Below, piece by piece: positions 3,359-20,134 of a stretch of 20,612 nt of DNA. The DNA comes from a virus. Within the stretch, counting starts at the first letter, position 1; every line of letters begins with the position of its first letter. Made by a program: the position numbers and the translations under genes. Location: IMG/VR virus record IMGVR_UViG_3300021519_000092, positions 1 through 20,612 of that record; one strand, written 5' to 3'. The notes under the pieces are model-generated. The model was not told where the DNA came from and searched no databases. It was given only the letters and a program-made list of their open reading frames with translations.

Positions 3359-3774
3359 TCTTGCCCTATAACCGTTACGATTAATTGAGGAATCTCGGCG
3401 TATTGCTTGGTGGCTGTCAGCTTAACGATCTGCGAGTCATCGACGACGACAATGCCGTTCATGCCGTCGAGGGCTTTAACGATGTTATCTAGGTCAGGCT
3501 TCGTAACCGGCTTGATTTGTCCCGCGATGGCCGACAACCGCTTCTTTAACGACCATGAGGCGGGCACCATCATAAACGCCTCGACAACAACTTCAACAGG
3601 CCCGCCAAGGGGCGGTGTGTTTCTCATTGCCTCGGCAGCGTAAGCCGACACCTGATTCTCGTACCGGCGCGTTTTCTCTGGCGTGTACGAACGCACATGA
3701 CCACCAAATGTAGATATCCTGGCGCGTCCCTTCGCTACAGGTTGTCCTGGGACGGTGAAGGTAACAACTCTCAC
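3355..3774 (-). CDS. rusA: RusA-family Holliday junction resolvase (139 aa)
   Basis: RusA is a dimeric, Mg-dependent endonuclease that cuts four-way junctions formed during recombination and late replication. The diagnostic block is here: KPDLDNIVKALDG (residues 92-104), followed by VVVDDSQIV (about 109-117). D94, D96, K100 and D112/D113 correspond to the catalytic acids and lysine of the E. coli enzyme. The N-terminus (FTVPGQPVAKGRARI) also matches the family. The length is normal. The start is GTG at 3774, overlapping the upstream regulator's stop by 4 bp, and the end overlaps the primase start by 4 bp. It lies in a leftward replication operon, divergent from the Sak4/SSB operon whose products would create its substrates. 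Confidence 0.92.
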   Translation of the reverse strand: MRVVTFTVPGQPVAKGRARISTFGGHVRSYTPEKTRRYENQVSAYAAEAMRNTPPLGGPVEVVVEAFMMVPASWSLKKRLSAIAGQIKPVTKPDLDNIVKALDGMNGIVVVDDSQIVKLTATKQYAEIPQLIVTVIGQE

Positions 3775-3965
3775 GAATAGAAGTCCTGCGCCTTCACTTT
3801 TCCCCTTGTTGCCTTCTCTATAGCCAACATATGTTCTGGACGCGGTATACGCTTGTCATCATCCGTAGATGTCCACCTGTGTATCGCGCTGTCTGAAACA
3901 TCAATCATAACGGCGAACTCACGATTGGTGAGCTTCTGCAAATCAAGCCATTTTCTCAGCTTCAT
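3771..3965 (-). CDS. Cro/YdaS-like helix-turn-helix regulator (64 aa)
   Basis: The start at 3965 (MKLRKWLDLQ) follows a perfect GGAGG at 3971-3975. A longer in-frame extension to 4052 would run through the operator region and is rejected. Residues about 7-35 form a helix-turn-helix: LDLQKLTNREFAVMIDVSDSAIHRW. FAVMIDV is the first helix, and SDSAIHRWTS is the recognition helix with the His-Arg-Trp seen in Cro/YdaS proteins. The remainder (RIPRPEHMLAIEKATRGKVKAQDFY) matches the usual closing helix and C-terminal strand. It is the first gene of the leftward operon and sits beside inverted repeats over the divergent promoter, so it probably represses that promoter. Confidence 0.75.
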   Translation of the reverse strand: MKLRKWLDLQKLTNREFAVMIDVSDSAIHRWTSTDDDKRIPRPEHMLAIEKATRGKVKAQDFYS

Positions 3966-3994
3966 ATAAACCTCCGTTGTAGAGAAAATAGTGT

Positions 3995-4035
3995 TTGACA
4001 GAACCAAGACGACTTGGCAATCTCCTTTTTGCCAA
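3995..4035 (+). promoter_or_regulatory. Rightward early promoter overlapped by nested inverted-repeat operators
   Basis: A consensus TTGACA (-35) at 3995-4000 is followed, after 17 bases, by CAATCT at 4018-4023. The latter is a weak -10 with an extended TGG just before it. Overlapping the -10 and expected start is a perfect inverted repeat TTGGCAA (4014-4020) / TTGCCAA (4029-4035) with an 8-base spacer. A second inverted repeat, CCAAG (4004-4008) / CTTGG (4013-4017), shares its right arm. These half-sites lie between the divergent regulator (start 3965) and the recombination operon (start 4064). They are the best candidates for the Cro-like protein's binding sites. I could not place the leftward promoter confidently. 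Confidence 0.6.
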
Positions 4036-4063
4036 AGCGTAATCACAACCAACCGAGGAAACC

Positions 4064-4468
4064 ATGAACTTCAAACCGCAACCACTCGCCAACCGTACCG
4101 CCGCCGATGCCGCGTCAGATTGGATGGACGCGAAGAACCAAGAAGTCGCTGCCAACAAGCGCCGTCTTGAGATTGAGGAAGAGATTCTCTCCCTCGTCAC
4201 ATCTAAGACTGAAGGCAGTGAGTCTTATCAGGTCGGACCATACAAGGTCACGCTCACTGGTCGCCTCAACCGTAAGGTTGACTGGGACATGGTGGAAAAT
4301 CTGGGCGTTCCTTCTGCCCTCAACCCCGTTAAACACAAACTCGAACTGGACTTGAAAGGACTGCGTTATCTGGAAAGCAACGAACCAGAAATCTACAAAA
4401 CATTTTGCAAGGCTATGACTATTGAACCCGCGAAAACATCTGTAACCGTTATCAGGAACGAGAATTGA
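4064..4468 (+). CDS. Conserved-looking early phage protein of unknown function (134 aa), first gene of recombination operon
   Basis: It starts at ATG 4064 after GAGGAA at 4055-4060. The N-terminal half is a long charged helix (about residues 12-47, including MDAKNQEVAANKRRLEIEEE), probably coiled coil. A beta-type segment (YQVGPYKVTLTGRLNRKVDW) follows, then a helical middle (MVENLGVPSALNPVKHKLELDLKGLRYLE), and a final strand (IEPAKTSVTVIRN). There are no catalytic motifs and only one cysteine. Proteins of this shape commonly precede a Sak4-type ATPase and a DUF669 protein in phage operons, which suggests a partner or inhibitor in recombination. I cannot assign a function. The stop is 1 base before the next ATG. 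Confidence 0.7.
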   Translation: MNFKPQPLANRTAADAASDWMDAKNQEVAANKRRLEIEEEILSLVTSKTEGSESYQVGPYKVTLTGRLNRKVDWDMVENLGVPSALNPVKHKLELDLKGLRYLESNEPEIYKTFCKAMTIEPAKTSVTVIRNEN

Positions 4469-4469
4469 T

Positions 4470-5240
4470 ATGGCAATCAACCTACAATCATTACGCAAGA
4501 CGAGCGTAAACCACCCGCCACGCATTGTGCTGTATGGTACGCACGGTGTCGGCAAATCGTCTTGGGCAGCACAGGCCGACAGGCCGGTGTTTATCCAAAC
4601 TGAGGAAGGTTTGGACGCCTTATCCGTTACCGCTTTTCCAAAGGCGCAGTCTTATGAACAGGTCATGGAAGCTATCCAATCCCTGTACGCTGAAGACCAC
4701 GACTTCGGAACGGTAGTGCTGGATTCTGCCGACTGGCTTGAACAACTTATCTTCAAGCAAGTTGCCCAGAACCATAAGGTCAGCAACATCGAAGACATTG
4801 GATACGGTAAGGGCTACGCCTTCGCCGTTGAACTGTGGCGAGATGTGCTGGAAGGATTTGACCTGTTGCGGAATGAGAAGAATATGCAAGTCATTCTTCT
4901 TGCTCACACGCAGGTTAAACGCTACGACGACCCGCTGACTGATAGCTATGATCGTTACATGCTTGATTTGCACAAGGGTGCAGCCGCCATCATTTCCGAA
5001 TGGTGCGACTGTCTTGCCTTTGCCAATTATACAGTCACAACTGTGAAGAACGACATTGGCTTCAATCAGAAGAAGACTAGGGCTATCGGGTCCGGCACTC
5101 GCGTGCTTCACACCCAAGAGCGCCCTGGCTGGGTTGCTAAGTCACGTTGGTCGCTACCAGATACCCTGCCGCTAGACTACGCAGCCTTCTCAGACGCACT
5201 CTTAAACGCAATGCAACCTCAACCAAACGTAAAGGAATAA
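4470..5240 (+). CDS. Sak4-like RecA-fold ATPase, phage single-strand annealing/recombination protein (256 aa)
   Basis: Walker A is GTHGVGKS at residues 23-30. Walker B is TVVLDSAD at about 81-88. A later core strand, VILLAHTQVKRYDDP (about 141-155), carries the His/Gln sensor-type residues. The layout of a short N-terminus, a P-loop RecA core and a basic C-terminal part matches the phage ATPases grouped as Sak4 (AAA_24-type). These work with a single-strand-binding protein to anneal or exchange strands. A start directly preceded by AGGAACGAG, and a DUF669 protein 4 bases downstream, support that pairing. The exact biochemical activity (annealase or strand exchange) cannot be read from the sequence. 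Confidence 0.82.
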   Translation: MAINLQSLRKTSVNHPPRIVLYGTHGVGKSSWAAQADRPVFIQTEEGLDALSVTAFPKAQSYEQVMEAIQSLYAEDHDFGTVVLDSADWLEQLIFKQVAQNHKVSNIEDIGYGKGYAFAVELWRDVLEGFDLLRNEKNMQVILLAHTQVKRYDDPLTDSYDRYMLDLHKGAAAIISEWCDCLAFANYTVTTVKNDIGFNQKKTRAIGSGTRVLHTQERPGWVAKSRWSLPDTLPLDYAAFSDALLNAMQPQPNVKE

Positions 5241-5244
5241 ACAG

Positions 5245-5721
5245 ATGGCTGAATTAGATTTCGTATTTGATCCGAACACCGTCGAAGACCGCCCAGACTT
5301 CAGTCTGTTTCCGGTTGGTGAGTACATCGCTGAAGTGACAGCCAGCGACTACAAACCAACCAAATCCGGTAATGGTAAGTTCATTGAACTTGAGTTTACT
5401 ATTCTCGATGGCGAGTACGCTGGCCGTAAGTATTGGGACCGGCTCAATGTCCAACATGAGAATAAGGTGGCAATGGATATTGCCAACTCCTCCTTGAAGG
5501 ACTTGATGAAGGCTATTGGTAAACCTAACGAGCCTTGTCGGAACACCAATATGCTTCACGGCATCCCGGTAAAGCTGAAGATCGGCATGTCCAAGCGTAA
5601 GGACACTGGCGAGGACCAGAACACGGTGCGCTATAAGCCCATTGGTTCTCCGTCTGCTTCGGTTGTTAAGCCGTCAGGTGTTAGCCCTAACGGTCCCAAG
5701 AAGAAGCCCTGGGAAAAGTAG
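5245..5721 (+). CDS. DUF669-type single-stranded DNA-binding protein (158 aa)
   Basis: The middle (about residues 20-115) matches the DUF669 pattern: FSLFPVGEYIAEV, KSGNGKFIELEFTILDGEYAGRKYWD, and a helix ANSSLKDLMKAIG, then PVKLKIGM. This is the OB-like core of phage SSB proteins that partner Sak4-like ATPases. The C-terminal approximately 30 residues are Ser/Pro/Lys-rich and end KKKPWEK, a flexible tail that may bind partners. The acidic tail seen in bacterial SSB is absent. It is the last gene before a strong terminator and would therefore be produced in excess over downstream genes, as suits an SSB. Confidence 0.82.
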   Translation: MAELDFVFDPNTVEDRPDFSLFPVGEYIAEVTASDYKPTKSGNGKFIELEFTILDGEYAGRKYWDRLNVQHENKVAMDIANSSLKDLMKAIGKPNEPCRNTNMLHGIPVKLKIGMSKRKDTGEDQNTVRYKPIGSPSASVVKPSGVSPNGPKKKPWEK

Positions 5722-5729
5722 CGGGGTTG

Positions 5730-5760
5730 GCCGGGGGCATTACGCCCCCGGCTATTTTTT
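5730..5760 (+). terminator. Strong intrinsic terminator
   Basis: There is a perfect 9-bp GC-rich stem, GCCGGGGGC (5730-5738) / GCCCCCGGC (5744-5752), with an ATTAC loop. It is followed by TATTTTTT (5753-5760) and lies 8 bases after the SSB-like gene stop. It splits the rightward operon into a highly expressed recombination part and a downstream part. No clear promoter is visible between it and the next gene at 5801, so read-through or antitermination is likely needed for genes 5801-9156. Confidence 0.93.
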
Positions 5761-5800
5761 AAATTGAAGCCAATGCTGCGTCACTGGAGGAGGATCAGAC

Positions 5801-6031
5801 ATGACCCGCGAACCGACTGAGATGGAGACGAGGGTGGCGAATGTGCTTTGGAACCGCATGAACGGCTCTGAGGTTATGGATAAATATGACCGCATGGAAT
5901 TTGTTTGGCACGCGCGCGCTGCGATCCGCGCTATGCGTGATCCTGCGCCGGGGATGCCTCACATGAACAACGCTGCGTGTGTGCATCTTTGGTATGACAT
6001 GATCGACGCAGCCTCGCCGCAGGAGGAGTAG
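5801..6031 (+). CDS. Small phage protein of unknown function (76 aa)
   Basis: The start is fixed by an unusually strong ribosome-binding site, GGAGGAGG at 5786-5793. The protein is helical, with conserved-looking aromatic positions (VLWNRMNG, FVWHARAAIRAMRDP, VHLWYDMIDAA). The pattern 'A-R-x-A-I-x-A-M-R-x-P-x-x-x-M ... W-x-x-M-I-D-A-A' recurs in small phage proteins of unknown role, usually next to nucleotide-metabolism genes. There are no catalytic motifs. The stop is immediately followed by the next gene's GTG, so the pair is probably co-translated. Confidence 0.65.
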   Translation: MTREPTEMETRVANVLWNRMNGSEVMDKYDRMEFVWHARAAIRAMRDPAPGMPHMNNAACVHLWYDMIDAASPQEE

Positions 6032-6319
6032 GTGACCGCTGGCATCAAGCACGACGAAGGAAAGCCTTTAGTGCTAAAGGGCTTCCTTCGGCAGTTCCCA
6101 CTAGCCATTGAGGCTGTGGCGCGGGTGTCAGAGTTTGGCGCTGAGAAGTACACCTGGGGTGGTTGGGAGACTGTGCCGGAGGGCGTAGAACGCTACGGCG
6201 AAGCCCTGGCGCGACACTTGCTACAAGAGGGCTATGACGCGGAAAGCAATATGGTACACGCTGCCCATGCCGCCTGGAACGCAATGGCGCGTCTGGAATT
6301 GATGATGAGGAAGAAATAG
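6032..6319 (+). CDS. dATP/dGTP diphosphohydrolase-like protein (DUF5664/MazG-like, 95 aa)
   Basis: The start is GTG at 6032, directly after the previous stop, with AGGAGG at 6021-6026. The sequence reads KHDEGKP, then RQFPLAIEAVARVSEFGAEKY, GGWETVP, ERYGEALARHL, and AAHAAWNAMARLEL. This is the all-helical DUF5664 pattern: metal-binding Glu and Asp/His in E-x-x-x-E/H-A-A-x helices, and a Lys-Tyr-Gly-Gly-Trp substrate loop. Members hydrolyse dATP/dGTP to dNMP and pyrophosphate; in cyanophage S-2L the relative MazZ supplies precursors for 2-aminoadenine DNA. No purZ is in the window, so here it may simply adjust nucleotide pools. The family call is from the pattern; specificity is unknown. Confidence 0.75.
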   Translation: MTAGIKHDEGKPLVLKGFLRQFPLAIEAVARVSEFGAEKYTWGGWETVPEGVERYGEALARHLLQEGYDAESNMVHAAHAAWNAMARLELMMRKK

Positions 6320-7288
6320 ATGGTGCCCGTTGACTTGCCCGACCAAACGCTAGTCACCATGAATGAGATGCTGGTAAGTAATTACCGCAATGAACGGCGC
6401 GGTTATCTCGGCGCGTCTGGCATTGGCACGGCCTGTGAACGTCGCATATGGAACCAGTTCCATTGGATTGGCGACGACGCCATGACGGCGAAGTCTATAA
6501 AGGCAATCGAAGACGGTCACTACAGTGAAAGTGTGATGGCTGCGCGCCTACGGCTTGTCCCAGGGGTAAAGTTGTGGACAGAGGGTGGCGACGGGAAGCA
6601 GTTCAATTTCAAAGATGGACATATCCGTGGAAACTTAGACGGCAAGATCAAAGGGATTCACAAGAACCCCACTGATATGCACGTTTGGGAACACAAATGC
6701 ACCAACAATAAGAAATTCGATGCGTTGGTGAAGTTAACTGTAGACAACGAAAGCACCGCGCTATTCAACTGGGATGAGCAATACTTCGCTCAAGCCCAAG
6801 TCTACATGCACTACTTGGGTGTTCAGTGGCACTACCTTACAACCTGCTCGGCTGGTAGCCGTGACGAGACAAGCTGCATAACAGCTTACGATCCAGCCGC
6901 AGCCAAGCACTACATAGATAGAGCGCGGGGGATCATAAGGGCAGACAAACCGCCGCCGCGTATTTCGAGTAAGCCATCTTGGTATCAATGTAAAATGTGC
7001 CCATTCACCGATAATTGCCACGGTGATAAAATGCCATTGACCAACTGCCGTACATGCGCCCACTCCACTCCGTTAGAGGATGGCTCATGGAAGTGTGAGT
7101 TGCTGAACACACCTATTGACGACGAAGTGCAAAGGTCAGGATGCGGCAAGCACCTATTCAATCCTGGCTTAGTCCCAGGAGCGCAGACTGACGCTGGCGA
7201 AGATTGGGTAGAATACGAAATGAAAAACGGAACAACCATCAGGAACCAAAATGCTACAGTTACGACCCTATCAAAAACAAGCGGTTGA
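6320..7288 (+). CDS. Cas4/AddB-like PD-(D/E)XK nuclease with Cys cluster (322 aa)
   Basis: The nuclease core reads GNLDGKIKG (D107), HVWEHKC (E124-x-K126), and an alpha helix with the Q-x-x-x-Y motif (Q158-Y162). An early Cys in GTACERRIW (C39) plus C224, C227 and C233 match the four-cysteine iron-sulfur arrangement of Cas4 and AddB nucleases. A second Cys-rich domain follows (residues about 243-278: NCRTCAHS, GSWKCE, SGCGKHLFNP), probably zinc-binding. It likely degrades one strand of duplex ends for annealing by the Sak4/SSB pair. It overlaps the helicase gene by 38 bases. The Fe-S cluster is inferred from cysteine spacing. Confidence 0.8.
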   Translation: MVPVDLPDQTLVTMNEMLVSNYRNERRGYLGASGIGTACERRIWNQFHWIGDDAMTAKSIKAIEDGHYSESVMAARLRLVPGVKLWTEGGDGKQFNFKDGHIRGNLDGKIKGIHKNPTDMHVWEHKCTNNKKFDALVKLTVDNESTALFNWDEQYFAQAQVYMHYLGVQWHYLTTCSAGSRDETSCITAYDPAAAKHYIDRARGIIRADKPPPRISSKPSWYQCKMCPFTDNCHGDKMPLTNCRTCAHSTPLEDGSWKCELLNTPIDDEVQRSGCGKHLFNPGLVPGAQTDAGEDWVEYEMKNGTTIRNQNATVTTLSKTSG

Positions 7289-8879
7289 TTCGATATTCGA
7301 GTGGTTTGAGGGCGACGGCCACAATTCAAACCCTTTAATCGTGTTACCCACAGGCACGGGCAAGAGCCTTGTGCTGTCCGAAATATGCCGACGCTCGATT
7401 GCTGAGTACGGCGATATGAAGATCGTGGTCGTCACTCACGTTATGGAACTGATTAAACAGAACCATGAAGAGATGATGCGCCAATGGCCCGAGGCTGACG
7501 CTGGCATCTACTCGGCTGGCATCGGTAAGCGCCAGCACACCCCAGCCGTTGTGTTCTGCGGTATCCAATCCGTACACTCCAAGGCCCACCTGTTTCAGAA
7601 GGTGGACTTCGTAATCGTGGACGAAGCGCACCTGATCCCGCGCAAGACTGAGACTATGTACCAGCGGTTCCTTGGTAGCCTCCGTGTAGCCAATCCTCAC
7701 ATAAAGATCATCGGGCTGACGGCTACGCCGTACCGCATGGACACGGGGACACTACATACCGGAGACGGCGCGCTGTTCGACGGCATCTGCTACGAATACA
7801 GCGTCCTTGACGCCATTCGGCAGGGCTTTCTGTCTAACCTAGTGACCAAGAATACCCGCGTTGGGCTTAACACCAGTGGCGTCCACACCAGAGGTGGGGA
7901 GTTCATACAGTCTGAGTTGCAAAGCGCAGTGGATATAGACGAAACCAACCGCCTAGCCGTAGACGAGATCATAGAATGGGGCAGCGACCGCCGCTCCTGG
8001 CTAATCTTTGGCTCCGGCGTGGAACATTGCCGCCACCTGCAAGACCACTTATTGCGTAGGGGTATTATCTGCGAGACAATCTTTGGGGACACGCCCAAAG
8101 GTGAGCGCGCACAGATCATTGACGAGTTTAAGCGCGGCGAGGTCCAAGCCTTATGCTCTATGGGGGTGCTGACCACAGGCTTTAACGCGCCAAACGTAGA
8201 CTTGATAGCAATGCTGCGTCCTACACAATCACCCGGCTTGTATGTGCAGATTGTAGGGCGGGGGATGCGGGTAGCGGAGGGCAAGAAGGACTGCCTGATC
8301 CTAGACTTCGCCCGCAACATCCAACGGCACGGGCCTGTAGACGTAGCCCAGACCAGTCGCGGTCCCCATGTGAACCGCGTAGGGGAAGGTGAAGGCGCTC
8401 TGGTTAAGACCTGTCCTGAATGTAAAAGCGTCATGCACCTGTCGGCGCGTCAGTGCCTGGATTGCGGCTATGAGTTTCAGCAAGAGATTAAGATTGCTCC
8501 CACAGCCAGCACCCTGCCGGTCCTGTCAACCGCCATACCTTCGTACTGGGTTGATGTTGATGAGGTTAAGTACACAACCCACTCCAAGGTGGGCAAACCT
8601 GCCAGCATGAAGGTGACGTATTACTGCGGCCCTCTTAAATACAGCGAGTGGATTTGCCTTAACCACGAAGGCTATGCCAAACAGAAGGCCATTGCTTGGT
8701 GGCGCAAGCGCACATCTAACCTGCCGCCGGGGAATGTTGCCGAAGCTGTTGAACGGCATAGCGAGCTAACGGAGCCAGTGGCTATCCAAATCAAACGCAA
8801 CGGTAAATTTGATGAAATTACAAACTACAGGTTTGATGTGCTACGTGTGTCGCAGGGAGAGTCGAGGCTTTCGGTTTGA
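7251..8879 (+). CDS. SF2 DEAD/DEAH-type helicase with zinc ribbon and C-terminal extension (542 aa)
   Basis: Motifs appear in order: Q-like LRPYQKQAV (4-12), Walker A LPTGTGKS (32-39), DEAH (124-127), GLTATPYR (155-162), a second RecA domain LIFGSGVEHC, TTGFNAPNVD (308-317), and motif VI QIVGRGMR (333-340). A four-Cys zinc ribbon follows (C388, C391, C402, C405), then an approximately 130-residue extension of unknown fold. The RecG/UvsW/RadD style suggests branch migration, or unwinding of duplex for the preceding nuclease. The ATG at 7251 has AGGA at 7241-7244 and lies inside the nuclease gene, implying coupled translation. Polarity and substrate cannot be read from sequence. Confidence 0.88.
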   Translation: MLQLRPYQKQAVDSIFEWFEGDGHNSNPLIVLPTGTGKSLVLSEICRRSIAEYGDMKIVVVTHVMELIKQNHEEMMRQWPEADAGIYSAGIGKRQHTPAVVFCGIQSVHSKAHLFQKVDFVIVDEAHLIPRKTETMYQRFLGSLRVANPHIKIIGLTATPYRMDTGTLHTGDGALFDGICYEYSVLDAIRQGFLSNLVTKNTRVGLNTSGVHTRGGEFIQSELQSAVDIDETNRLAVDEIIEWGSDRRSWLIFGSGVEHCRHLQDHLLRRGIICETIFGDTPKGERAQIIDEFKRGEVQALCSMGVLTTGFNAPNVDLIAMLRPTQSPGLYVQIVGRGMRVAEGKKDCLILDFARNIQRHGPVDVAQTSRGPHVNRVGEGEGALVKTCPECKSVMHLSARQCLDCGYEFQQEIKIAPTASTLPVLSTAIPSYWVDVDEVKYTTHSKVGKPASMKVTYYCGPLKYSEWICLNHEGYAKQKAIAWWRKRTSNLPPGNVAEAVERHSELTEPVAIQIKRNGKFDEITNYRFDVLRVSQGESRLSV

Positions 8880-9650: not shown

Positions 9651-10079
9651 TTAGTCCTCCTTGAATAGATCAGTTACACGGCCCGCACGTTGCGGCGTCT
9701 GTTTGGCCCAGGCGCTGTCCAGGGCCTCTCTACGGGCCGCATTGTAATCCCTAGCCTGTAGGGCAGCCAACATCTTCTGGAACTTCAGCACCCCTCCCAG
9801 GCCCATCTGGAAGGTCATATTGGCTATGGCGCGCTGGACCCCCTGGGGCTTGGTTTCCAGCCAGGGGAGGGCCTTGGCAAGCTGCCCCTTAACCCGCTCG
9901 ATGTCGTTATCGAGCATCATCATGGCCTCATCCTCGGTAATGCCTACGTCGTCTAGGTTCCGGCCCACGCCAAGGGTGAGCTTACCAGCCGGGCACAGGT
10001 ACGGCTTTAGCCGTAGGCCCTCCTCGGCAATCAAGTCTTTTCTTAGACCTTCCACGGCACACCGTGGGACAATAGCCAA
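9651..10079 (-). CDS. Endolysin, T4-lysozyme-like muramidase with Glu-Cys-Thr triad (about 142 aa)
   Basis: Residues 19-42 align with T4 lysozyme: EEGLRLKPYLCPAG and KLTLGVGRN. The E-8aa-D/C-5aa-T catalytic signature is present as E20, C29 and T35, with Cys in the place of T4 Asp20. The rest (ITEDEAMMML, NMTFQMGLGG, SAWAKQTPQRAGRVTDLF) matches GH24 to the end. It cleaves peptidoglycan beta-1,4 bonds at lysis. The start is doubtful. TTG 10079 gives 142 residues, GTG 10055 would give 134, and TTG 10034 would start right at IAEEG. No signal peptide or SAR segment is visible, so it depends on the holin. It overlaps the preceding gene by up to 37 bases. Confidence 0.88.
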   Translation of the reverse strand: MAIVPRCAVEGLRKDLIAEEGLRLKPYLCPAGKLTLGVGRNLDDVGITEDEAMMMLDNDIERVKGQLAKALPWLETKPQGVQRAIANMTFQMGLGGVLKFQKMLAALQARDYNAARREALDSAWAKQTPQRAGRVTDLFKED

Positions 10080-10238: not shown

Positions 10239-13200
10239 CTAACCTTCTTCTTCGTTATACAAATCATACAACGCTGGGCGCTTGAGCTTCCTGGCGTTTC
10301 TAACAGCTAACTCTGGGTGCATCATTACCAAGGCGCGGTTTTTGATAGAAGAAATAGACGGCGGCTGCACCTTCTCATCAAGTGGAACACTCGGGCTTCC
10401 AAAATCAACAGCGGCCCTTTGATACTTGTCTACAAACTCTTTCATAAGTTTGTCGGCCTTCTGGCTATCGCCCTTTTCCCTAGCGGATATGCTATTCGCA
10501 AGTTTAGCTGACAGGTTTGTACTCAGCATATCTTCCGCTTCTTTGGTCCTGTACTTTAGACGCCGTGCAAAATAATCGCGCTCCTGAATAGAAGCGAATT
10601 TAGTTGGCTGGAAACCGGCCGCCTTAGAGGCGCGCTGTCCGATATTTGGTTCCGCAACCTTCATGTCTCCGCTTTGTGTGCGGTAGCCTTCAGCAGGGAG
10701 TTGTACTAGACCGCGTGCTATGTCAGACGGCCCTTTGGGGATGCCCATAGACGCCAAAGCCAGCGCCCCACCTATAGGCTGGTCTGAGTCGAACCTTTTC
10801 TTGGCTTCGATAACCTTGCCAACAGTCGCGGACAATATTGGGATGTTCATAATAGGGTTGGCGTCAGGCAGTATCTGGCCCTGGCCAATACGTTTAGACA
10901 CATCAATCCCAAGGAACCGAGCAGGGCCACGCGCTGCGGCTTCGGCCCACTCGGGACTCGCGCCGATCCCCTCAAGCATCTCGCGCATTTCGTACTCGAT
11001 CATCGGGTCAATGCCGGTCAGGTTCTTCATTATAAATTCGTAGGAATCAACAAGGTCGTCGGCAAACGGCAGACCGAGAAGGCCACCAAAGGCGGTGAGT
11101 GCCATTAGCATCATGGTCCCGGCGATCTTCCCCTCTGGCCCCGCGCTGGTCATGTTGTTCTTAAGGATACGCAGATAGTTCATGGGGTATTGCTTAAACT
11201 GAAAAGCCACACCACCAATGCCGCGCAAGGCCTCTGGCCGGTCGATCTTGCCACCAATGAATTGAGTTTCGTTCACAAAGAAGTCAGCGATATTGGCTGG
11301 CGTTAAACCAAACTGACTCTCTATGAGGCTAACCCGCGCATCGTTGGCGTACATATTCTTAAACTTGGCTATAGCACCTGGAGCTTGCGCCTCTCTGTAT
11401 GCAGCCAGCCATGCTGTGGCGCGGTTGACCTGTTCAGCCCCGTTAAACGCAGACGTTCCAACGTCGAATATGTTCCAGATAACCCTTTGTATTTTGGCAG
11501 ACTTATCGTTTCCGATTTTCTTAGATATTGATTGCCAGTTATCGGGCGACGTTCCGTGAAGGTCTTGCGTCACAGTAGGGTTAATGCGCCCTCTGTTGAA
11601 CGCATCCATAAACGCAACCTGCTCTTCAGGGCTGTTGAATTTAATTTTATTCGGGTCAAGGTTAATGCCTTTGCGTCTATCAAATGACAAGGCTCTTAAC
11701 ATATTCATAGACAGTTTGATCGTTCTGCCCGCCGCAGGTATCCCAGCCCAGCCAGCTATTTGTGTGGCTGTAATGGTCGGAGTTTGCGAAAGGTTCACAA
11801 GCGCCGAAGACGCGGACCCCCATAGGCTAGACCAGAACCCGTATTGCTTTAGCTGCCCAATCAGTTTCTCGTCGCTATCAAGATAATTGTTTACGCGCTC
11901 GGCATACTTTCTGATGTTCTCTGGAACATTCCTGCCGTCTTGTGTGCGCTCATAAGCATCTTCAGTTTGTTGACCGTACTCAACGCCAGACACAACACTG
12001 GCAGATGCGCGGTTGTAATCAATGATTGATTGCAAGAAGTCGGTGGAATACCCAGGAACATTCCTAGATTCTTTTGTAAACCCGGCACGTTGCGCCTTCT
12101 TAACTTGGTCAAGCAAGCTATCGCGCAATGCGTTCTTTACGTCAGTCTTGCCCAGCCCTGTGCCTTGAAGGGCTTCCAGAATGTTGTTCATCGCGCTGTT
12201 GCGGTCTTTCTTATCCGCAATGTTTGTCGCCGCGAGCAGCTTCTCGATTAGCGAGACATCGAGCTTCTCAATATTGTCTTTATTAATTGGGTCATTCTTT
12301 ACTTCGTAGAGAGGTTCCCCATTAGCATCAAGCTCAGGGAACTTCTTTTGAAGTTCTGCAAATTTACTTTTGATGACTTCGTTCTTCTTAACACTAGAGC
12401 CCGTGAGCCCACCCCACACGTTTTTAGTGTTGACCATCTCAAAGTACATAACTTCGCCGGTTAGTTTGTTTCTGACAGTGAATCCCTCATCACCCGCACG
12501 GCTAAACGGCACGTAATTCTCACGCGCTTTTGCGTCGGCGTAGATGGCGTTCACAAACTCTAGGTTCTTAGCGCGCTGGCTGTTGCCGTCTGCTTGGGCT
12601 TGAGCGATGGCGGCTTGGATTGCCCCGGCGTCCCACTCACCCTCATACCCCCACCGCTTACCAATGGCTTGGCCGTACTGGTTCCAGCGGGCCTTGAAGT
12701 AGTCCTTAATCCCCATGAAGATTTCAGTCTGCTCTTTATCCAGCATGAAGACTTCGCCGGGGCGACCAAGCACGCCGTTGTAGTTCTCCGGCAGGACAAC
12801 GGTGATGCGCCCGTTCCTGGGAGTAATGTTGGTATTCGTAAGGCGCGCAAACTCCATAACGGCCTCGATCTGTTTGCGAGGCTTGTATTCCAACTGAGTC
12901 ATGCGCTCGATTGGCTTTTCGCCTTCCTTAATAAGCGCGGTTTCTCTTTCACTCCTGGCTTGCAGAAGGCTCTGAAAATTAGCGATTACAGGAAAGCGGC
13001 GGGCGACACCCTGCATCATGGCGAACCACAGTACGGGGCGGGAGATTGTCTCAGACGCCAGCTTGGGCGATCCACCCGTTACCCTGTTGACGCTGTTAAC
13101 CGTATTGCTGACCTGCGCGGCGGTCTGCTCCGTGCCATCAGGGTTGAGTAATGGTTTAGCTTCTTGCCCTTTGGAGAGAGAGAACGAGCCGGAGATGTCA

Positions 13201-16200
13201 GACAGTTCAGAGAACAAATCAAACTGAGTTGGCTTGGACTTCTGTTCGGCCTTTGCTTCTTTGTAGTCAGGGAATATTTCACTGACATCAGCATTTAAGA
13301 AGCCTTCTGAAATTCTAAGAACTTCAGAGAGCGCGGTGTCTGACTTTGCACTTAACCCCAAGAACCTTCTGATTGATTCAATAAATTTAGAAAACAGATT
13401 GCCACCCTTATAGGGTATGCTTTCAAGAAAGCTCTGTGCTTTTGGATCGGTAAGCGCATAGGTTATAACTTCGTCGTTTGTAATCTCTTGACGGCTGTTT
13501 ATAAAATTATTTTTGTTTCCATAAATTGCTTTTTCAAAATCAGTAAGCGGCTCTCCTGAGTCAACTTTTTTATTAAAATACTTAATAATTCCATTTTTAA
13601 CATCAAATAAATCTTTACGAAGTCTTCCAAGATTAGTATCTGGACCGTAGTCTTTATAAACCGCTTGTCTAAACGCAGACAAAGTTGCTGCATGAATTAA
13701 TTCATGCAAAGTGGTCTTTTCGTCTGTGCCGAAATTATCTGGAGAAAGACCAACAGATTTTAAGTAAACATTAAATTTCTTATGTGGTTTTGACGGATCA
13801 GAATACACAAATCCTCTTACGCTTGTGTTTCTAATGCTTAACCATTCGGCTCTAGAAGCTGTAAAAGTTTCATTAGGTTTTATAATTTTAACACTGAACT
13901 CAACGCCAGCTTTAGAAAGCTGTTCTAGTTTTGCCAGAACACGCGAAGCTATAAGTCTGTAAGACGGATTATCAGATTTCTCCGCAATTACTTTTGCGAT
14001 TTCACTGACAGTTTTACCTTCAATCTGTTTTTCAAACTCTAAGGCTTTGCTGCGCTCTTCATCTTTCACAGTCTTTTCTTCTGACGACATAGATATGTCA
14101 GCAAATATCCTATCGGCTTCAGCGCGCTGCTCCTCAATAGTCTTCTCTTCGAGCTCTGGAGTCTGGATAGTCTCTACAAAACGCTCTTGTTTGGGAAGCG
14201 CCGCCTCTTGTGGTTCCGCCTGAATAGCAGCACGCTCGTCTGCCTCATCTCTTTCCAAAATCTGTTTCTCAGAAAGCGCATTGTCAGCGGCGCGCTGTTC
14301 TTCGGCTTCCTTTCTTAGACGTTGTGATTCAGACAGGACTCTCTGGGCTTCTCTCTGTTCCCATAATTCCTTACGTCTCTCTTTAAGCTGATAGATATTC
14401 AGCTTTTTGGTTTCTTCAATAGGAACACCAAAGGACGTATGTAAGTCTTCACGATGCTGAATAGTCTCAACATCTTCGCCCTTAAAACCGGCATTGCCGA
14501 AGATCGACTTTAACTCAGCGCGTCTATCGCGTTCTACCTGTCGCGGGTTAACGCCGCCATCTTCAGCGGCGTTAGGAAAGGTCTTCTTCGCATTAGACAG
14601 GGCGGTCTTAAACGCATCCATGTCTTCTTTAGTGTTCGCCTCCTCTGGCCCAATCTCTTTTATCGGCCCGAGGTAGCCAGCCTTTTCGGCGCGATTAACC
14701 GCCTCTCTGACTGAGATGCCATTGCCTCTAAGAAGTCCTTTGAAAGCGCCCGCGCCACCAACGTCTTCAACAAATCCAAGTCTAGGGTTAATCCCACCCT
14801 GATCTATCAAATAACCGTACAGGGACTTCACCCTAACGGCTTTAGGAAGATCGCCAACGGGGGTTAGCGGTTCGTACTTTAATGGAGCAACCGTAACCTG
14901 GGGAGCGCCCTCTCCAGTCTTAGCTTTTGTATCCATCAAGTCTGTTGGCGGCGGGGTGTACTCCATCGGAGGCGGGGCGGCAGCCTTACGAGCGGCTGCG
15001 CCTTCTTCTTCTGTGACTTCAACAGGCTTATAGCCGCGTGTCTGCTCAAGTCGGTTGGCCTCTTCTCGTTTTGAAGCGGCCAGTACCTTCAGATTATCAA
15101 CATACAACTGGTTTTCGGGCGTTATGTTTCTGCGCGCTGTTATCTTTAACGCTTCGTCTTCGTGTTCCTTTGCGGACTCTCTTAAAGCACGAACATTATC
15201 CAGCCCGGTAACATCAAGCATTGCCCCAGGCTCAACGGGCTTTAACTTTTTTCTCTCTAATCTAATTTCGGCAGTCCGCTCATCGGCCATCGACTGTACA
15301 TCAAACGGGGGCGGCTCCGCATTATCTTCAGGCGGAGCCTTCGTCAGTGGCGCGACATCCGTGTCAACTAAGTTGGGTAACAGGTCTTCAACACGGCTGG
15401 TATTGGGGCCTCCCCCAGCCGGAAGAGCCGGGTCGGTCTCATCATGCAGCGTGAATGTAGCAATAGGCACGCCATCAACATCCTTAACACTGTCAATGGT
15501 GGCGACCCTTACAACACCCGCATCGTCCTTAATGCCAATCGCGCTGCCCACCGGCCTGAAGCCAATCGTCGTGGGGTCAGCGATGTCCTTGCCGACGATG
15601 CTGCCCAAGGGCTCTGGGGGTTGTTCTTCTGTGGGTTGTTTCTGTTGGCCACCAAACGTAGCTTCAGTGCCAGCACCCAAGACGCCGCCAGCAAAGCCAC
15701 CCTTTAATGCAGAATCTATAACATCGTCCCAGTTGATTGCCTTATTTGACCCTCCGGCCTGGGCAGACGCTTGTTCAACGATTGTTTGAAGACCTTCAGT
15801 GCCGCCTTCAAGCAGGAATTGTTTAGCACCCTCTACGCCAAGTCTTTTAATAAGACTACCGCTTACATCTTTTGCGGCTTCGCCAAACATCTTCCCCAAG
15901 ATTGGTACATCAGCGACAACATCAAGAGCGCCAGCTATAGCGCCGCCGACTACCGCCGCTGCGGCACCTGTGCCGCCGCGCTTTCCGGTTTCATCTACTA
16001 TGTCGCCATATATTGATCCCATTTCCATACCGGCAGACGGGACATACGCACCAGCCGCAGAGCCGACAGCCACGCGCTTTGCAACCATTTCCGCTGCGGC
16101 TTTCTCAGCGGCATCTTTACCTAGTCCTTCACCTATTTTTTTAGCAACCATATCGGCTACTAAACTTTCGGCACCCTTGCGTGCCACGGTAGCGCCAACA

Positions 16201-16664
16201 CCACCGCTTACAAGCGACGGTATAAACATTGGTAAGTTTTCAAATATGGCATCAACCGCATATTTACCGGCGTCACCAAACCCGTGAATGTCTTTGTATG
16301 TCGGCACATCAGAAGCAAGCTCCTGAGCCCTAGCTTCTGTTTGCTTGTACTTTTCAAGCATGGATGTACCAAAGTCTTTGGCACCAACAACGTCAGCACC
16401 CAACGCGGCAAGACCGTAGCCTGTGGATTTTAACCCTTCTACCCCGCGCTCTAAGGACTTACTGATGCGCCCCTGGCCCGTGTCTTCTTCGGGCGCGGGC
16501 GGTGCGGCAGGAGCGGATTGTAAGTGAGCCAGTATTTCTTGGCTGGAATACCCAGCTTTCTTTGCGCCCTCAACATCAAATTTACGAGTTTCGGCAAGAT
16601 GACTAATGATTTCGTCATCATTATACCCAGCCGCTTTCGCGCCTTCTATGTCGAACGGAGGCAT
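10239..16664 (-). CDS. Giant virion/ejection protein of the large polyvalent type with HExxH metallopeptidase domain (2141 aa)
   Basis: Order of parts: two 20-residue N-terminal repeats (F4-L23 and F29-L48, core EGAKxAGY); Gly/Ala hydrophobic segments (about 133-160, 230-258, 320-338); a Pro-rich linker (about 340-600); a coiled coil (about 755-870); a zincin-like segment with H987-E-L-I-H991 and likely third ligand E1065; then a long alpha-helical C-terminal half with a hydrophobic stretch near 1848-1868. The C-terminal half recalls PLxRFG-type polyvalent proteins, but that name is tentative. It contains no cysteine. It occupies the place of T7 gp16 after two smaller virion proteins, so it is probably ejected with the DNA. 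The ribosome-binding site is weak. No transglycosylase motif was recognised. Confidence 0.8.
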   Translation of the reverse strand: MPPFDIEGAKAAGYNDDEIISHLAETRKFDVEGAKKAGYSSQEILAHLQSAPAAPPAPEEDTGQGRISKSLERGVEGLKSTGYGLAALGADVVGAKDFGTSMLEKYKQTEARAQELASDVPTYKDIHGFGDAGKYAVDAIFENLPMFIPSLVSGGVGATVARKGAESLVADMVAKKIGEGLGKDAAEKAAAEMVAKRVAVGSAAGAYVPSAGMEMGSIYGDIVDETGKRGGTGAAAAVVGGAIAGALDVVADVPILGKMFGEAAKDVSGSLIKRLGVEGAKQFLLEGGTEGLQTIVEQASAQAGGSNKAINWDDVIDSALKGGFAGGVLGAGTEATFGGQQKQPTEEQPPEPLGSIVGKDIADPTTIGFRPVGSAIGIKDDAGVVRVATIDSVKDVDGVPIATFTLHDETDPALPAGGGPNTSRVEDLLPNLVDTDVAPLTKAPPEDNAEPPPFDVQSMADERTAEIRLERKKLKPVEPGAMLDVTGLDNVRALRESAKEHEDEALKITARRNITPENQLYVDNLKVLAASKREEANRLEQTRGYKPVEVTEEEGAAARKAAAPPPMEYTPPPTDLMDTKAKTGEGAPQVTVAPLKYEPLTPVGDLPKAVRVKSLYGYLIDQGGINPRLGFVEDVGGAGAFKGLLRGNGISVREAVNRAEKAGYLGPIKEIGPEEANTKEDMDAFKTALSNAKKTFPNAAEDGGVNPRQVERDRRAELKSIFGNAGFKGEDVETIQHREDLHTSFGVPIEETKKLNIYQLKERRKELWEQREAQRVLSESQRLRKEAEEQRAADNALSEKQILERDEADERAAIQAEPQEAALPKQERFVETIQTPELEEKTIEEQRAEADRIFADISMSSEEKTVKDEERSKALEFEKQIEGKTVSEIAKVIAEKSDNPSYRLIASRVLAKLEQLSKAGVEFSVKIIKPNETFTASRAEWLSIRNTSVRGFVYSDPSKPHKKFNVYLKSVGLSPDNFGTDEKTTLHELIHAATLSAFRQAVYKDYGPDTNLGRLRKDLFDVKNGIIKYFNKKVDSGEPLTDFEKAIYGNKNNFINSRQEITNDEVITYALTDPKAQSFLESIPYKGGNLFSKFIESIRRFLGLSAKSDTALSEVLRISEGFLNADVSEIFPDYKEAKAEQKSKPTQFDLFSELSDISGSFSLSKGQEAKPLLNPDGTEQTAAQVSNTVNSVNRVTGGSPKLASETISRPVLWFAMMQGVARRFPVIANFQSLLQARSERETALIKEGEKPIERMTQLEYKPRKQIEAVMEFARLTNTNITPRNGRITVVLPENYNGVLGRPGEVFMLDKEQTEIFMGIKDYFKARWNQYGQAIGKRWGYEGEWDAGAIQAAIAQAQADGNSQRAKNLEFVNAIYADAKARENYVPFSRAGDEGFTVRNKLTGEVMYFEMVNTKNVWGGLTGSSVKKNEVIKSKFAELQKKFPELDANGEPLYEVKNDPINKDNIEKLDVSLIEKLLAATNIADKKDRNSAMNNILEALQGTGLGKTDVKNALRDSLLDQVKKAQRAGFTKESRNVPGYSTDFLQSIIDYNRASASVVSGVEYGQQTEDAYERTQDGRNVPENIRKYAERVNNYLDSDEKLIGQLKQYGFWSSLWGSASSALVNLSQTPTITATQIAGWAGIPAAGRTIKLSMNMLRALSFDRRKGINLDPNKIKFNSPEEQVAFMDAFNRGRINPTVTQDLHGTSPDNWQSISKKIGNDKSAKIQRVIWNIFDVGTSAFNGAEQVNRATAWLAAYREAQAPGAIAKFKNMYANDARVSLIESQFGLTPANIADFFVNETQFIGGKIDRPEALRGIGGVAFQFKQYPMNYLRILKNNMTSAGPEGKIAGTMMLMALTAFGGLLGLPFADDLVDSYEFIMKNLTGIDPMIEYEMREMLEGIGASPEWAEAAARGPARFLGIDVSKRIGQGQILPDANPIMNIPILSATVGKVIEAKKRFDSDQPIGGALALASMGIPKGPSDIARGLVQLPAEGYRTQSGDMKVAEPNIGQRASKAAGFQPTKFASIQERDYFARRLKYRTKEAEDMLSTNLSAKLANSISAREKGDSQKADKLMKEFVDKYQRAAVDFGSPSVPLDEKVQPPSISSIKNRALVMMHPELAVRNARKLKRPALYDLYNEEEG

Positions 16665-16667
16665 TTT

Positions 16668-18497
16668 TTATTGACCAAAACTATTTAAAGGCGGGCGCGC
16701 ATTAGAGCCGCCCCCAGCCAGTGGGGGCGCAGCGCCGCGCTCTTGAGTTGAAAGGTTTGTATTAAGTATAGAATACGCCCTATTGTATGCGTCGTTGTAT
16801 GCTTGGTCCTTGAGCTTTTTTAATGCTTCAGGTTTTAAACTCATATTTTTTAAATCTGCATCAACCGCCTTTACAGCTTCATCAGCTTGCTTCAGAGCGA
16901 TGGCTTTATTTAAGTCATCATTTTTTTCGACTCCAGATGCTACACGCGCAGCTTCTTGGGGAGCTAACCCCCCTTTATCTACAAGCAAGTTGTATTTGTA
17001 TTCAGCTTCTGTGGCTCTATCAGGTTTGGAATTTTTAACAGCTTCGCTTTTGTAGTAATTAATTACTGCTTGAGCTTTTTGATATTCTAAACTTCCAGGT
17101 ATTTGCGCGCTTTCATATTCTCTCTTCTTCAAATCAGCATTAGCTTGTTCAACCTTTAAGCCGCCCTGAGAAATATCCAACTGGCGATTACGCGCATCGT
17201 TGTTCAAGTCCTCACTACGCTGAGATTGCAACAACGTAGCTTGCTTCATATTTCTTTCAGCGCGTGCGGCTTTAGCTTCTTGCAGTTGTTTAACGCCCAA
17301 CATTCCACCTTGGCCGATTGAGCCAAGGAACTTGGCCCCTGGCTGCGAAGCAGCCGCCATCGTGCCCAAGCTGGCTTGAAGAAGCGCCATGTATTTGTCC
17401 TGCGACGACAACGGCTGGTCATCACTTAGCAGCTTATCCATGCGCTCTTTGTAAGCATCGGACTCTGATTGCTTACGTGCGTTCATAGCTTCCGCCGCCG
17501 CGTCTGGCTTGCCCGGTTCAACGGCTGCGGGCGGCGGAGCGGTTAAGGCTTGGGATGCGCGCTCTGCGGCCTTAGCGCGAGGGGCAGCAATGGCGGCGTC
17601 GGGCGCGGCGATTTCGGCTGCGTTTTCATTTATAGGAAACTCTTGAAAAGTCGGCTTGAAGTCTTTTAAGGATTCAAGCTGGTATCTTTCTTCTCCAGGT
17701 GCAGAATCACCCATCCGTTTTTTTCTAAGTTCTTCTGCAACAAAATCAGGGTCTTGGGTTAATTCAGAACCTGTAGAGTAATCAATAGCTTTGCGTGCAT
17801 ATGGTTCAGCTTTTTCATAAAGATAACCTACGCTTTTATTGATAGCGGAACCCAACCCCCCGAAATAATTTTCGGGGGATATGTCTGGAATTTTTGAAAA
17901 CATATCTTTTATAAGTTGAGGATTATTTCTTCCCTCACCCTCAGTGTAAAATTTCTCAGTAGCTTCTTCCTGCGTCATCTCAGGGGGGACAAGCCCTCTC
18001 AATCTTTCAGACAAAATATCTGTTCTGGGATAACCCCTACCACCGAGAAAAGAATAATCTCCCCTATTCGCACTTCTGGCGTTTCTAATAGTTCTCTCTA
18101 AATAACTCTCGCCCCCCTCCGCATACCCCTTCACCGCCCCGCCGCGCGCCATAGCCGCTACACGGCTGGCATCAGCCGCGCCCGACATCAGGGCTTCCGT
18201 GGACGGGTTCTGCGGCGCTTCCGGCGCGGCCTGACGCTGCGGGATTTCGGGCTGCTCTTCCGGCCCTTGGCCCAGCATTTCCTGGCGCACAGCGGCCATA
18301 AAGCCTGGGTCCATTTGGCTCACGCCCGTGCTGTCGCCGGTCATCTGCGGCGGTTGCGCGGGAGCGTTAGCCCCGCCCCTCATAGTGTTCAACGCCGACA
18401 TCGCGGCCATGCGCTGCTGCGGTGTTGCACGCGGATCGGTCATCATCGCCATCAGCATGTCGGGAGACTGCTGCTGTTGCATTGGATTGATCGCCAT
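16668..18497 (-). CDS. Virion-associated (internal/ejection-type) protein, 609 aa
   Basis: It starts at 18497, overlapping the previous stop by one base (TAATG), with GAGGG upstream. The N-terminus is Met/Gln/Pro-rich (about 1-115) and includes the motif GGAVKGYAEGG at 119-129. A more globular middle follows (about 130-290), then an Ala/Pro linker (about 295-345). A long helical region follows (about 350-570: YMALLQASLGTMAAASQPG, KQLQEAKAARAERNMKQ, DLKKREYESAQIPG), probably coiled coil, and the tail is Gly/Pro-rich. It has no cysteine or tryptophan. Its position between a Gln/Ala/Gly-rich protein and the giant protein parallels T7 gp15. No enzyme motif is seen. GC content varies sharply along the gene. 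Confidence 0.65.
   Translation of the reverse strand: MAINPMQQQQSPDMLMAMMTDPRATPQQRMAAMSALNTMRGGANAPAQPPQMTGDSTGVSQMDPGFMAAVRQEMLGQGPEEQPEIPQRQAAPEAPQNPSTEALMSGAADASRVAAMARGGAVKGYAEGGESYLERTIRNARSANRGDYSFLGGRGYPRTDILSERLRGLVPPEMTQEEATEKFYTEGEGRNNPQLIKDMFSKIPDISPENYFGGLGSAINKSVGYLYEKAEPYARKAIDYSTGSELTQDPDFVAEELRKKRMGDSAPGEERYQLESLKDFKPTFQEFPINENAAEIAAPDAAIAAPRAKAAERASQALTAPPPAAVEPGKPDAAAEAMNARKQSESDAYKERMDKLLSDDQPLSSQDKYMALLQASLGTMAAASQPGAKFLGSIGQGGMLGVKQLQEAKAARAERNMKQATLLQSQRSEDLNNDARNRQLDISQGGLKVEQANADLKKREYESAQIPGSLEYQKAQAVINYYKSEAVKNSKPDRATEAEYKYNLLVDKGGLAPQEAARVASGVEKNDDLNKAIALKQADEAVKAVDADLKNMSLKPEALKKLKDQAYNDAYNRAYSILNTNLSTQERGAAPPLAGGGSNARPPLNSFGQ
16709..16729. repeat. GC-rich hairpin near the end of the 609-aa gene
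   Basis: CGCCCCCA (16709-16716), loop GCCAG, TGGGGGCG (16722-16729) form a perfect 8-bp stem. It lies about 45 bases before the giant gene's start on the transcribed strand. There is no following T-run in the leftward direction, so it is not a simple terminator. It might slow the ribosome or protect mRNA upstream of the weakly initiated giant gene. It also encodes Pro-Leu-Ala-Gly-Gly, so it may be incidental. Confidence 0.45.
17857..17878. repeat. Perfect 9-bp inverted repeat inside the 609-aa gene
   Basis: CCCCCGAAA (17857-17865), loop TAAT, TTTCGGGGG (17870-17878). It sits inside codons for PENYFGGLG of the leftward gene. No U-run follows on the transcribed strand, so termination is unlikely. 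It is symmetric and could be a protein-binding or structural element, or chance in a coding sequence. Confidence 0.4.
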
Positions 18498-20134
18498 TAT
18501 GAAGCCCTCGCAAACATTCCAAGTCCACGCTTCGGCAGCTTGCCGTAGCTAGACTTCTTCAGCGAACCCTTCTTGATAGCGCCGCCTTTGGCTTTCACAA
18601 GGTTGGCTCCGGCGATAATCGTTCCAGCCGTACCAGCTACCTTACCGGCAGTGCTTCCACCAGGGACAGATGTGCTGGATGTGCTAGTTGTCCCGCCTGG
18701 GGGCGCATTGCCTACGATACTCATGCCTGTTTTTATATTTTCAAACGGTGCGGCGTTTTCTACCACAGCCTGTCCTCTGTTGGCGTCAATGACACGCTGG
18801 TCCCGAGCTTCCGTACCTTCACCAACCGCCATCAATGCGCCAGAGTCCTTTAAGGTCATACTTTGGGCGTCTTTACCCAGACCAATATTAGCTGCACCAG
18901 CCCCAAGCTGATTGGCGGCATTGGCTGTCATCAAGCTTCCAAGTCCAGCGGCAACACCGGCCTCACCTTGACCAGCCGCCAGTATACGCGACAAGTCGGC
19001 TTGGCTGGCCTGGATATTGGCCTGACCGATTGAGGACAGTCCCTGTCCAGCCGCAAGCTGACGGGCCGCGTCCGACCCGGCTAGACCGGCATATGTAGAC
19101 CCAAGGCCAGCATACGAAGTGCCAAGGTTCCCAAGTCCAGCGCCCGCGCTTTGTAGAAGCTGCTGCTGCTGGGTGCCAAGGCTACCTGCCGTAGCGCCCA
19201 ACTGGCCGTAGCGCGACAGGTCAGCCGTTGAAGCGGCAAGCCCTTGGCCATAACCGCTCTGAAGCGCCTGGGCTTGCTGACCCAGGATTGACTCCTGGGT
19301 ATCCCGCGCTGCGCGACCGATTAGATCGCGCTGGCGGGTTGAACCGTAGCCACCGGCCTTGATGAAGTCGCTGCTGATCTGCGGAAGGATATTCTCAGAC
19401 AGGTTCCGCGCCCCAAGCTGGGCAATGCGGTTGGTAACCTGCTCATTGTAAGGGTTCATGTACTGCCCGACATTCTGAGCAGAAGACTGGCCAGCGGCTT
19501 GCAGATACGGAGAAGCTGAAGACAAACCCAAGGCGTCCGTGGACTGACCGTAGAGATTACCAGCTTGGCCATACTGCCCTTGCGCTTGTTGGGCATACGG
19601 GCTGAACATACCAGCGGTGTCGGTGTTGGCCGCTTGCTCAAACATGCCTGTAGCGGCGTTAAACTGCCCCTGACCGGCTAGACCGGACTTACCTGCGGCG
19701 GCTTGGTTGTAGTATTGAGATGCCTGATTATAAGTCGGCGCACCCGCGCCATAAATGTCCATACCGGAAGCATTGTTAATATTAGCGCCACCGCGCACCA
19801 ACCCAAATTGACCAGCCCCTTGGCCAGCACGCACTTGAGCGTTGGCCGCTTCAATATCAGCGTTTGTGCCAGCTACAAGGGGTTCGCCGGTTCTTTCATA
19901 ACCACCTAATTCGTAAGTTGGATTACCACTTGCGTCTAATACAGGTTTGCCGTCCTTGTCGTATATTGGTGCATTTTTATTTTGTAGTGTTGCATTCCAC
20001 TTAGACCCGTAAGGGTTATAAGGCGCACGGTTCATTAACTTCATAAGATCAGGGAACGCCTGATTTCTAACGGCTTGCGTAGCCTCATCGGGTATGATCG
20101 TTTGTGATGTATAAGTAGTGTTATTGTCGGCCAT
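18497..20134 (-). CDS. Ala/Gly/Gln/Ser-rich virion-associated protein, 545 aa
   Basis: It starts at 20134 after AGGAG at 20140-20144. After a polar N-terminus (about 1-110) comes an extended low-complexity region with repeated Tyr-Gly-Gln and Leu-Gly units (YGQAGNLYGQS, LGTSYAGLGSTYAGLAG, GQGLSSIGQ). It contains a more conserved-looking block about 220-290 (YMNPYNEQVTNRI, NILPQISSDFIKAGGYGSTRQ, RDTQESILGQQAQAL). That block is typical of internal or tail-tip proteins next to podovirus ejection proteins. The C-terminus has GGAIKKG (517-523) and ends KRGLGMFARAS. There are no cysteines. It may play the T7 gp14-like role of a pore-forming ejected protein, but this is inferred from position and composition. 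Confidence 0.65.
   Translation of the reverse strand: MADNNTTYTSQTIIPDEATQAVRNQAFPDLMKLMNRAPYNPYGSKWNATLQNKNAPIYDKDGKPVLDASGNPTYELGGYERTGEPLVAGTNADIEAANAQVRAGQGAGQFGLVRGGANINNASGMDIYGAGAPTYNQASQYYNQAAAGKSGLAGQGQFNAATGMFEQAANTDTAGMFSPYAQQAQGQYGQAGNLYGQSTDALGLSSASPYLQAAGQSSAQNVGQYMNPYNEQVTNRIAQLGARNLSENILPQISSDFIKAGGYGSTRQRDLIGRAARDTQESILGQQAQALQSGYGQGLAASTADLSRYGQLGATAGSLGTQQQQLLQSAGAGLGNLGTSYAGLGSTYAGLAGSDAARQLAAGQGLSSIGQANIQASQADLSRILAAGQGEAGVAAGLGSLMTANAANQLGAGAANIGLGKDAQSMTLKDSGALMAVGEGTEARDQRVIDANRGQAVVENAAPFENIKTGMSIVGNAPPGGTTSTSSTSVPGGSTAGKVAGTAGTIIAGANLVKAKGGAIKKGSLKKSSYGKLPKRGLGMFARAS

Follow-up and report, generated by a model that had tools for sequence, protein, structure and literature searches.

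We identified a predicted zinc metallopeptidase domain of the zincin type inside a giant, putatively ejected virion protein encoded on a viral sequence of 20,612 nucleotides (IMG/VR record IMGVR_UViG_3300021519_000092, positions 1 to 20,612; referred to here as the window). The domain spans residues 881-1144 of the protein (13233..14024, minus strand) and was recognized by BLAST, by an AF2 model and by a structural match to the virion RNA polymerase (vRNAP) of phage N4. Judged from sequence and model together, it is an active-site-complete, gluzincin-type zinc metallopeptidase domain, and it is likely that it binds a metal and is catalytic. The overall reading, that the zincin is an active and exchangeable cassette in a PLxRFG ejection protein and cuts a protein during genome entry, has in our view about an even chance of being correct.

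The giant open reading frame (10239..16664, minus strand; 2141 amino acids) encodes a protein that matches the NCBIfam model NF032893 for PLxRFG virion proteins with 142.2 bits, above the curated cut-off of 100. The PLxRFG ('tail-700') region covers residues 1490-2080 (10425..12197, minus strand; E 2e-41). Charged linkers flank the zincin domain; the one ahead of the cassette is of low complexity (residues 761-880; 14025..14384, minus strand; 40-53% charged residues per 40 amino acids), and its residues 823-857 are common to the giant protein and its counterpart in a sister phage (L002). Two segments with putative functions are hydrophobic over 19 amino acids: residues 238-256 (15897..15953, minus strand; hydropathy 1.84), which might insert into a membrane, and residues 1847-1865 (11070..11126, minus strand; hydropathy 1.81). 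At the N terminus, the motif FD(I/V)(E)GAKxAGYxxxEIxxHL occurs twice in tandem (amino acids 4-24 and 29-48; 16521-16655, minus strand). Pfam searches detected no domain in the whole giant protein, including an N-terminal lytic transglycosylase of the T7 gp16 type, and none in the zincin domain alone. An RNA polymerase fused to the zincin, as in N4 vRNAP, was not detected in the window protein.

Ahead of the giant gene, as part of the same gene run, lies the gene for a putative internal virion protein of 609 amino acids (16668..18497, minus strand), for which no family match was found, followed by that for a Gly/Ala-rich putative ejection protein of 545 amino acids (18497..20134, minus strand), which weakly matches phrog_4287 'DNA ejection protein' (E 0.007); both are in the same order in L002. 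Directly downstream of the giant gene is an endolysin gene (9657..10046, minus strand) whose product is 82% identical to the L002 endolysin, which itself matches phrog_7 endolysin. The L002 genome further encodes a portal protein of about 810 amino acids, a terminase and a head protein, and the window phage is a probable podovirus. For a PLxRFG protein of phage H66, presence in the virion was detected by mass spectrometry according to the annotation in its record. Because of the PLxRFG/virion context, the neighbouring genes and the relatives of the domain, the putative ejection of the giant protein together with the DNA is considered highly probable. The first-pass annotation had taken the product for a giant putative ejection protein of polyvalent type, and NF032893, the ejected-protein relatives and the BFVD matches given below agree with that description.

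The motif H987-E988-L-I-H991 (13692..13706), predicted to bind zinc and to be catalytic, and E1065 (13470..13472), the predicted third zinc ligand in a 'glutamate helix' (ExxT), are present as had been reported, and both are encoded on the minus strand, which the first-pass annotation did not specify. Shuffling the giant protein 20,000 times gave an HExxH in 0.5% of the shuffles, and with the homologues taken into account the motif lies far outside chance expectation. A viral search with an alignment as query returned at least 175 relatives, and 80 IMG/VR homologues were kept and aligned with the window domain. All 81 of these divergent sequences share H987, E988, H991 and E1065, and in every one of them the motif around E1065 reads ExxA/T/S; an ExxA/F/T/S/G-type motif is the signature of the gluzincin 'glutamate helix' (PMC7213743). 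In a 13-sequence alignment the invariant columns are exactly four, namely the two histidines, the catalytic glutamate and E1065. This conservation is not a selection effect, since E1065 is kept in 48/48 loci that were retrieved through the HExxH pattern only and HExxH is kept in 20/20 loci that were retrieved through the E-helix pattern only. The proposed role of E1065 as third ligand is thus supported by both conservation and position, and the predicted fold and the structural matches agree with a putative cluster of the two histidines and the glutamate around one metal. The catalytic glutamate is not a metal ligand, and its invariance argues for an enzyme.

The AF2 model of the domain, for which 54 sequences (the window and viral relatives) were used as input, has a pLDDT of 89 and a pTM of 0.88. 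The model contains the elements H47-65, E69-75, E98-102, E110-116, H129-150 and H207-219 (protein numbering is model residue + 853), which places the strands at residues 922-928, 951-955 and 963-969, followed by the HExxH helix (982-1003) and the Glu helix (1060-1072). This order of a helix, three strands, the HExxH helix, an insert and the Glu helix is the one by which Iyer et al. (2017) define polyvalent MPTases. The first-pass annotation had suggested a structure prediction, in which the HExxH helix now sits in the zincin order of elements, and the segment FNVYLKS, which it had called strand-like, is mostly strand in the model.

With VIA-align, the top match of the model was N4 vRNAP residues 2134-2349 (Z 7.4, rmsd 4.5, 186 aligned residues), followed by M34-type zincins, among which the lethal factor catalytic domain reached a Z of about 7 and PPEP proteases 5-6. 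All Z scores for the window domain are middling, below or near 8, a range in which a shared arrangement can be incidental; they gain credibility because zincins fill almost all of the top rows and a separate profile search gives the same N4 region. The N4 domain has been tied to lethal factor by HHpred before (Iyer et al., 2017; PMC5512222). A Foldseek search of the PDB with the domain model gave no significant match, although a missing entry in such a list does not count as evidence, and the structural relatives came from VIA-align and from BFVD, in which phiKMV-type internal core proteins, vRNAP, 'large polyvalent' proteins and crAss-like proteins were the top matches. Zincins of family M34 (the catalytic domain of anthrax lethal factor, PPEP-1) may share the overall fold, at Z scores of 5-7, below 8, but are secreted enzymes with other substrates and show no sequence-family match to the window domain: Pfam gave no M34 match for the window protein or the domain, and M34 is absent among the 25 families listed for 54 homologues.

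Relatives of the domain were found by sequence in internal virion proteins of phages. A tblastn search with the domain retrieved gp37 of phiKMV and LUZ19 and proteins of phiNV3 and of Achromobacter, Xanthomonas, Proteus and Limnohabitans phages, with N4-like virion RNA polymerases as weaker matches; the domain is 25% identical to phiKMV gp37 over 264 amino acids (BLAST, E 1e-20). A family profile searched against the PDB matched 9sfn_G over the full domain (1e-68) and, over the half that carries the motif, 8vb2_A (PhiM1 gp48; 5e-9) and N4 vRNAP (1e-6). Among the family members, 53/54 match phrog_2206. The domain was not matched in 72,556 plasmids or in a single-sequence viral scan, and 84,980 genomes of bacteria and archaea yielded it at 3 loci only. 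No literature on PDB 9sfn was found. The suggestion of a zincin-type metallopeptidase therefore holds by conservation, profile matches, AF2 model and structural matches alike.

The domain is a new member of a class described before, which comprises the MPTases of the 'polyvalent' proteins ejected by phages (Iyer et al., 2017) and the corresponding N4 vRNAP domain. The Iyer MPTases, grouped in 12 published clades, likewise reside in giant injected proteins and have a three-stranded sheet, an HExxH helix, a Glu helix and a variable insert (PMC5512222), whereas the window domain escapes Pfam models. Gp37 of phiKMV and LUZ19, a T7 gp16-like ejection protein corresponding by sequence to chain G of 9sfn, has the same domain with HEAVH and ELVA conserved, but is 1337 amino acids long, lacks the PLxRFG region and is labelled 'endolysin domain' in GenBank and RefSeq. 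The C1 domain of N4 vRNAP (2124-2375) and other Schitoviridae vRNAPs also contain HExxH and Glu, with the difference that in N4 vRNAP the zincin is fused to an RNA polymerase. In gp48 of Pectobacterium phage PhiM1, a tetrameric ejection protein (8vb2), HEAAH and Glu lie in residues 373-517, likewise in an inserted domain, and residues 268-528 were published as 'endolysin/exotransglycosidase-like' (PMC11440229). Relatives are annotated as 'internal virion protein with endolysin domain' or 'lytic exotransglycosylase'. The 'endolysin/exotransglycosylase' label on the zincin region of phiKMV-type gp37 (L003:5023-9036) and PhiM1 is probably a misannotation. One conserved, predicted zinc site would thus link ejection-protein domains of phiKMV-like phages, PhiM1, N4-like phages and the PLxRFG giants, suggesting that the 'endolysin' labels on many such domains are wrong.

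The zincin lies in a low-GC segment of the gene (residues 861-1165; 13170..14084, minus strand) with a GC content of 37%, compared to 51-52% in the flanks. The GC3 of this cassette is 31% versus 47% and 58% on its two sides; across 13200-14199 GC is 35-40%, compared to about 51% around it, and the 800 bp with the lowest GC of the whole record (36%; record mean 52.6%, sd 4.6%) lie in this stretch. The giant protein is 63% identical to that of L002 over residues 1-818 and 79% over 1172-2140, but across 881-1160 the identity is about 30% or less, and at the cassette it drops from about 80% to about 25%. In this slot L002 carries a different zincin (L002:11070-11759), which was found by the family profile. 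Its AF2 model is moderate (pLDDT 67), and since the alignment borrows the family it serves as supporting evidence only; it matches N4 vRNAP residues 2388-2586 (PDB 9pnt/9pnr; Z 8.2, 132 aligned), a stretch that differs from the one matched by the window domain. In L100 and L101, whose C-terminal halves are 41% identical to the window protein, the slot holds yet another HExxH domain (HEIIH) that the family profile missed. This third slot type is assigned by sequence, from HExxH together with a Glu further downstream that four relatives conserve; its relatives in bacterial genomes keep both HExxH and a later Glu. A search of IMG/VR and the 84,980 genomes for further sister chassis returned only L002, L100 and L101. 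Three different HExxH domains at the same site indicate that the slot is reserved for domains of the HExxH type, which replace one another there. The cassette is thus exchangeable and looks foreign, with one protease cassette per slot. L002 also has, directly ahead of a linker shared with the window, an inserted ParB-like domain (L002:10470-10790; DGHNRAAVA, read from the sequence) in a stretch of low GC (41%), and this insertion may represent a second exchangeable cassette. The exchange in the slot, the low GC of the cassette and the extension to phiKMV-type gp37 and PhiM1 gp48 are new; in the literature searched, the coverage of which was incomplete, neither the exchange nor the extension is stated. 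The first-pass annotation likewise contained no exchangeable, foreign-looking cassette and none of the relatives in phiKMV-type gp37, PhiM1 gp48 and N4 vRNAP.

We propose that the giant protein would be carried inside the head and leave it along with the DNA. While the genome enters, the zincin would then probably cleave a protein, most likely one of the host that it meets in the envelope or the cytoplasm. At any given time the slot would accommodate a single exchangeable protease cassette, so that specificity could shift while the delivery chassis is unchanged. If the domain is active, these phages inject a protease within the first seconds of infection. Compared with T7 gp16, which does without it, PhiM1 has the homologous domain inserted into the hub (PMC11440229), and the domain is therefore best seen as an accessory tool and not as a component of the channel. 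A host-facing target best accounts for the exchange and the foreign composition, and the exchange in the slot independently hints at a target that differs from host to host. We give somewhat less than an even chance to the substrate being a host protein and not the phage protein itself. Anti-defence, as suggested in the first-pass annotation, is one possible host-facing role. The giant protein had no match in PADLOC, a comparison that does not test function. Anti-restriction by proteolysis on the model of ArdC was marked down: ArdC of plasmid R388, the closest precedent with experimental data, which bears an MPTase, keeps its anti-restriction activity after mutation of the metal-ligand Glu (PMC7213743), and such a domain can therefore be dispensable for anti-defence. 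It is a tentative and rather unlikely generalization that ejection proteins of podoviruses have a dedicated slot in which zincin cassettes of differing origin are swapped at a fixed site, each cutting a host protein at DNA entry, with phages adapting to hosts by changing the injected protease.

The main rival to a host target is self-processing, in which the zincin would cleave the charged linkers of its own giant polypeptide during or after ejection and the parts would go to different places. Self-processing has been proposed for the polyvalent MPTase class, and Iyer et al. generally favour it, with processing of P1 DdrB as an example (PMC5512222). The position of the domain between charged linkers agrees with it, interchangeable zincins suit a generic linker cutter, and exchange of the cassette would fit a self-processing protease, too. 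However, PhiM1 gp48, which contains the domain, is unprocessed in the virion (PMC11440229), and recombinant full-length N4 vRNAP survives expression and was modelled through the domain (PMC12633501). Both observations argue against obligatory self-cleavage, and we regard self-processing, which may take place after ejection, as possible but the less probable course.

Two further readings place the domain in the passage of DNA through the envelope or in the virion itself. As a cell-wall enzyme it would cut peptide bonds of peptidoglycan and let the ejection channel through, as the endolysin and exotransglycosylase names of its relatives imply (including PhiM1 268-528). Gp37 of phiKMV and phiNV3, however, has no lytic Pfam domain, the wall enzyme of phiKMV is the product of a different gene (gp36, 'lysozyme motif'), and the relative YIMV22061 has an SLT domain separate from the zincin. 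Transglycosylases, moreover, need no HExxH+E metal site, and a role in wall degradation is accordingly judged improbable. Similarly little weight is given to a zinc-stabilised structural domain that packs in the virion core without catalysis. In PhiM1 the domain is found in the ordered core, close to the coiled DNA (PMC11440229), but the catalytic Glu is invariant in all 81 sequences and T7 gp16 dispenses with the domain. The absence of a Pfam domain could be cited for a coincidental HExxH in some helical stretch of no relation to zincins, but this reading is refuted by the 81/81 conservation and the zincin-type AF2 model, as well as by the profile and structural matches, and its probability is practically nil. 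The preferred reading of an injected protease is open to direct test in the model phages N4 and LUZ19.

Several observations concern related proteins and the rest of the window. N4 vRNAP 2388-2586, a stretch described in the N4 paper as lacking structural homology, directly follows the C1 HExxH domain, and judged from the match of the L002 zincin model to it, a tandem pair of zincin-like domains may be present in N4 vRNAP. The vRNAP of Vibrio phage phi 1 has two HExxH sites (1942 and 2177), and the Schitoviridae vRNAPs of L009 and L014 have a further HExxH of another type (HEVGH and HEAGH), far upstream of the zincin (amino acids 1218 and 1069, respectively). In the head gene region of the sister phage (L111:5350-5940) a weak GroES-like match was seen (phrog_3188, E 2e-4). 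The window also contains a replication module (1037-8879) with a Prim-Pol/DUF3987 primase and a RusA-like protein on the minus strand and a Sak4-like ATPase, a Cas4-type exonuclease and a DEAD/ResIII helicase on the plus strand.
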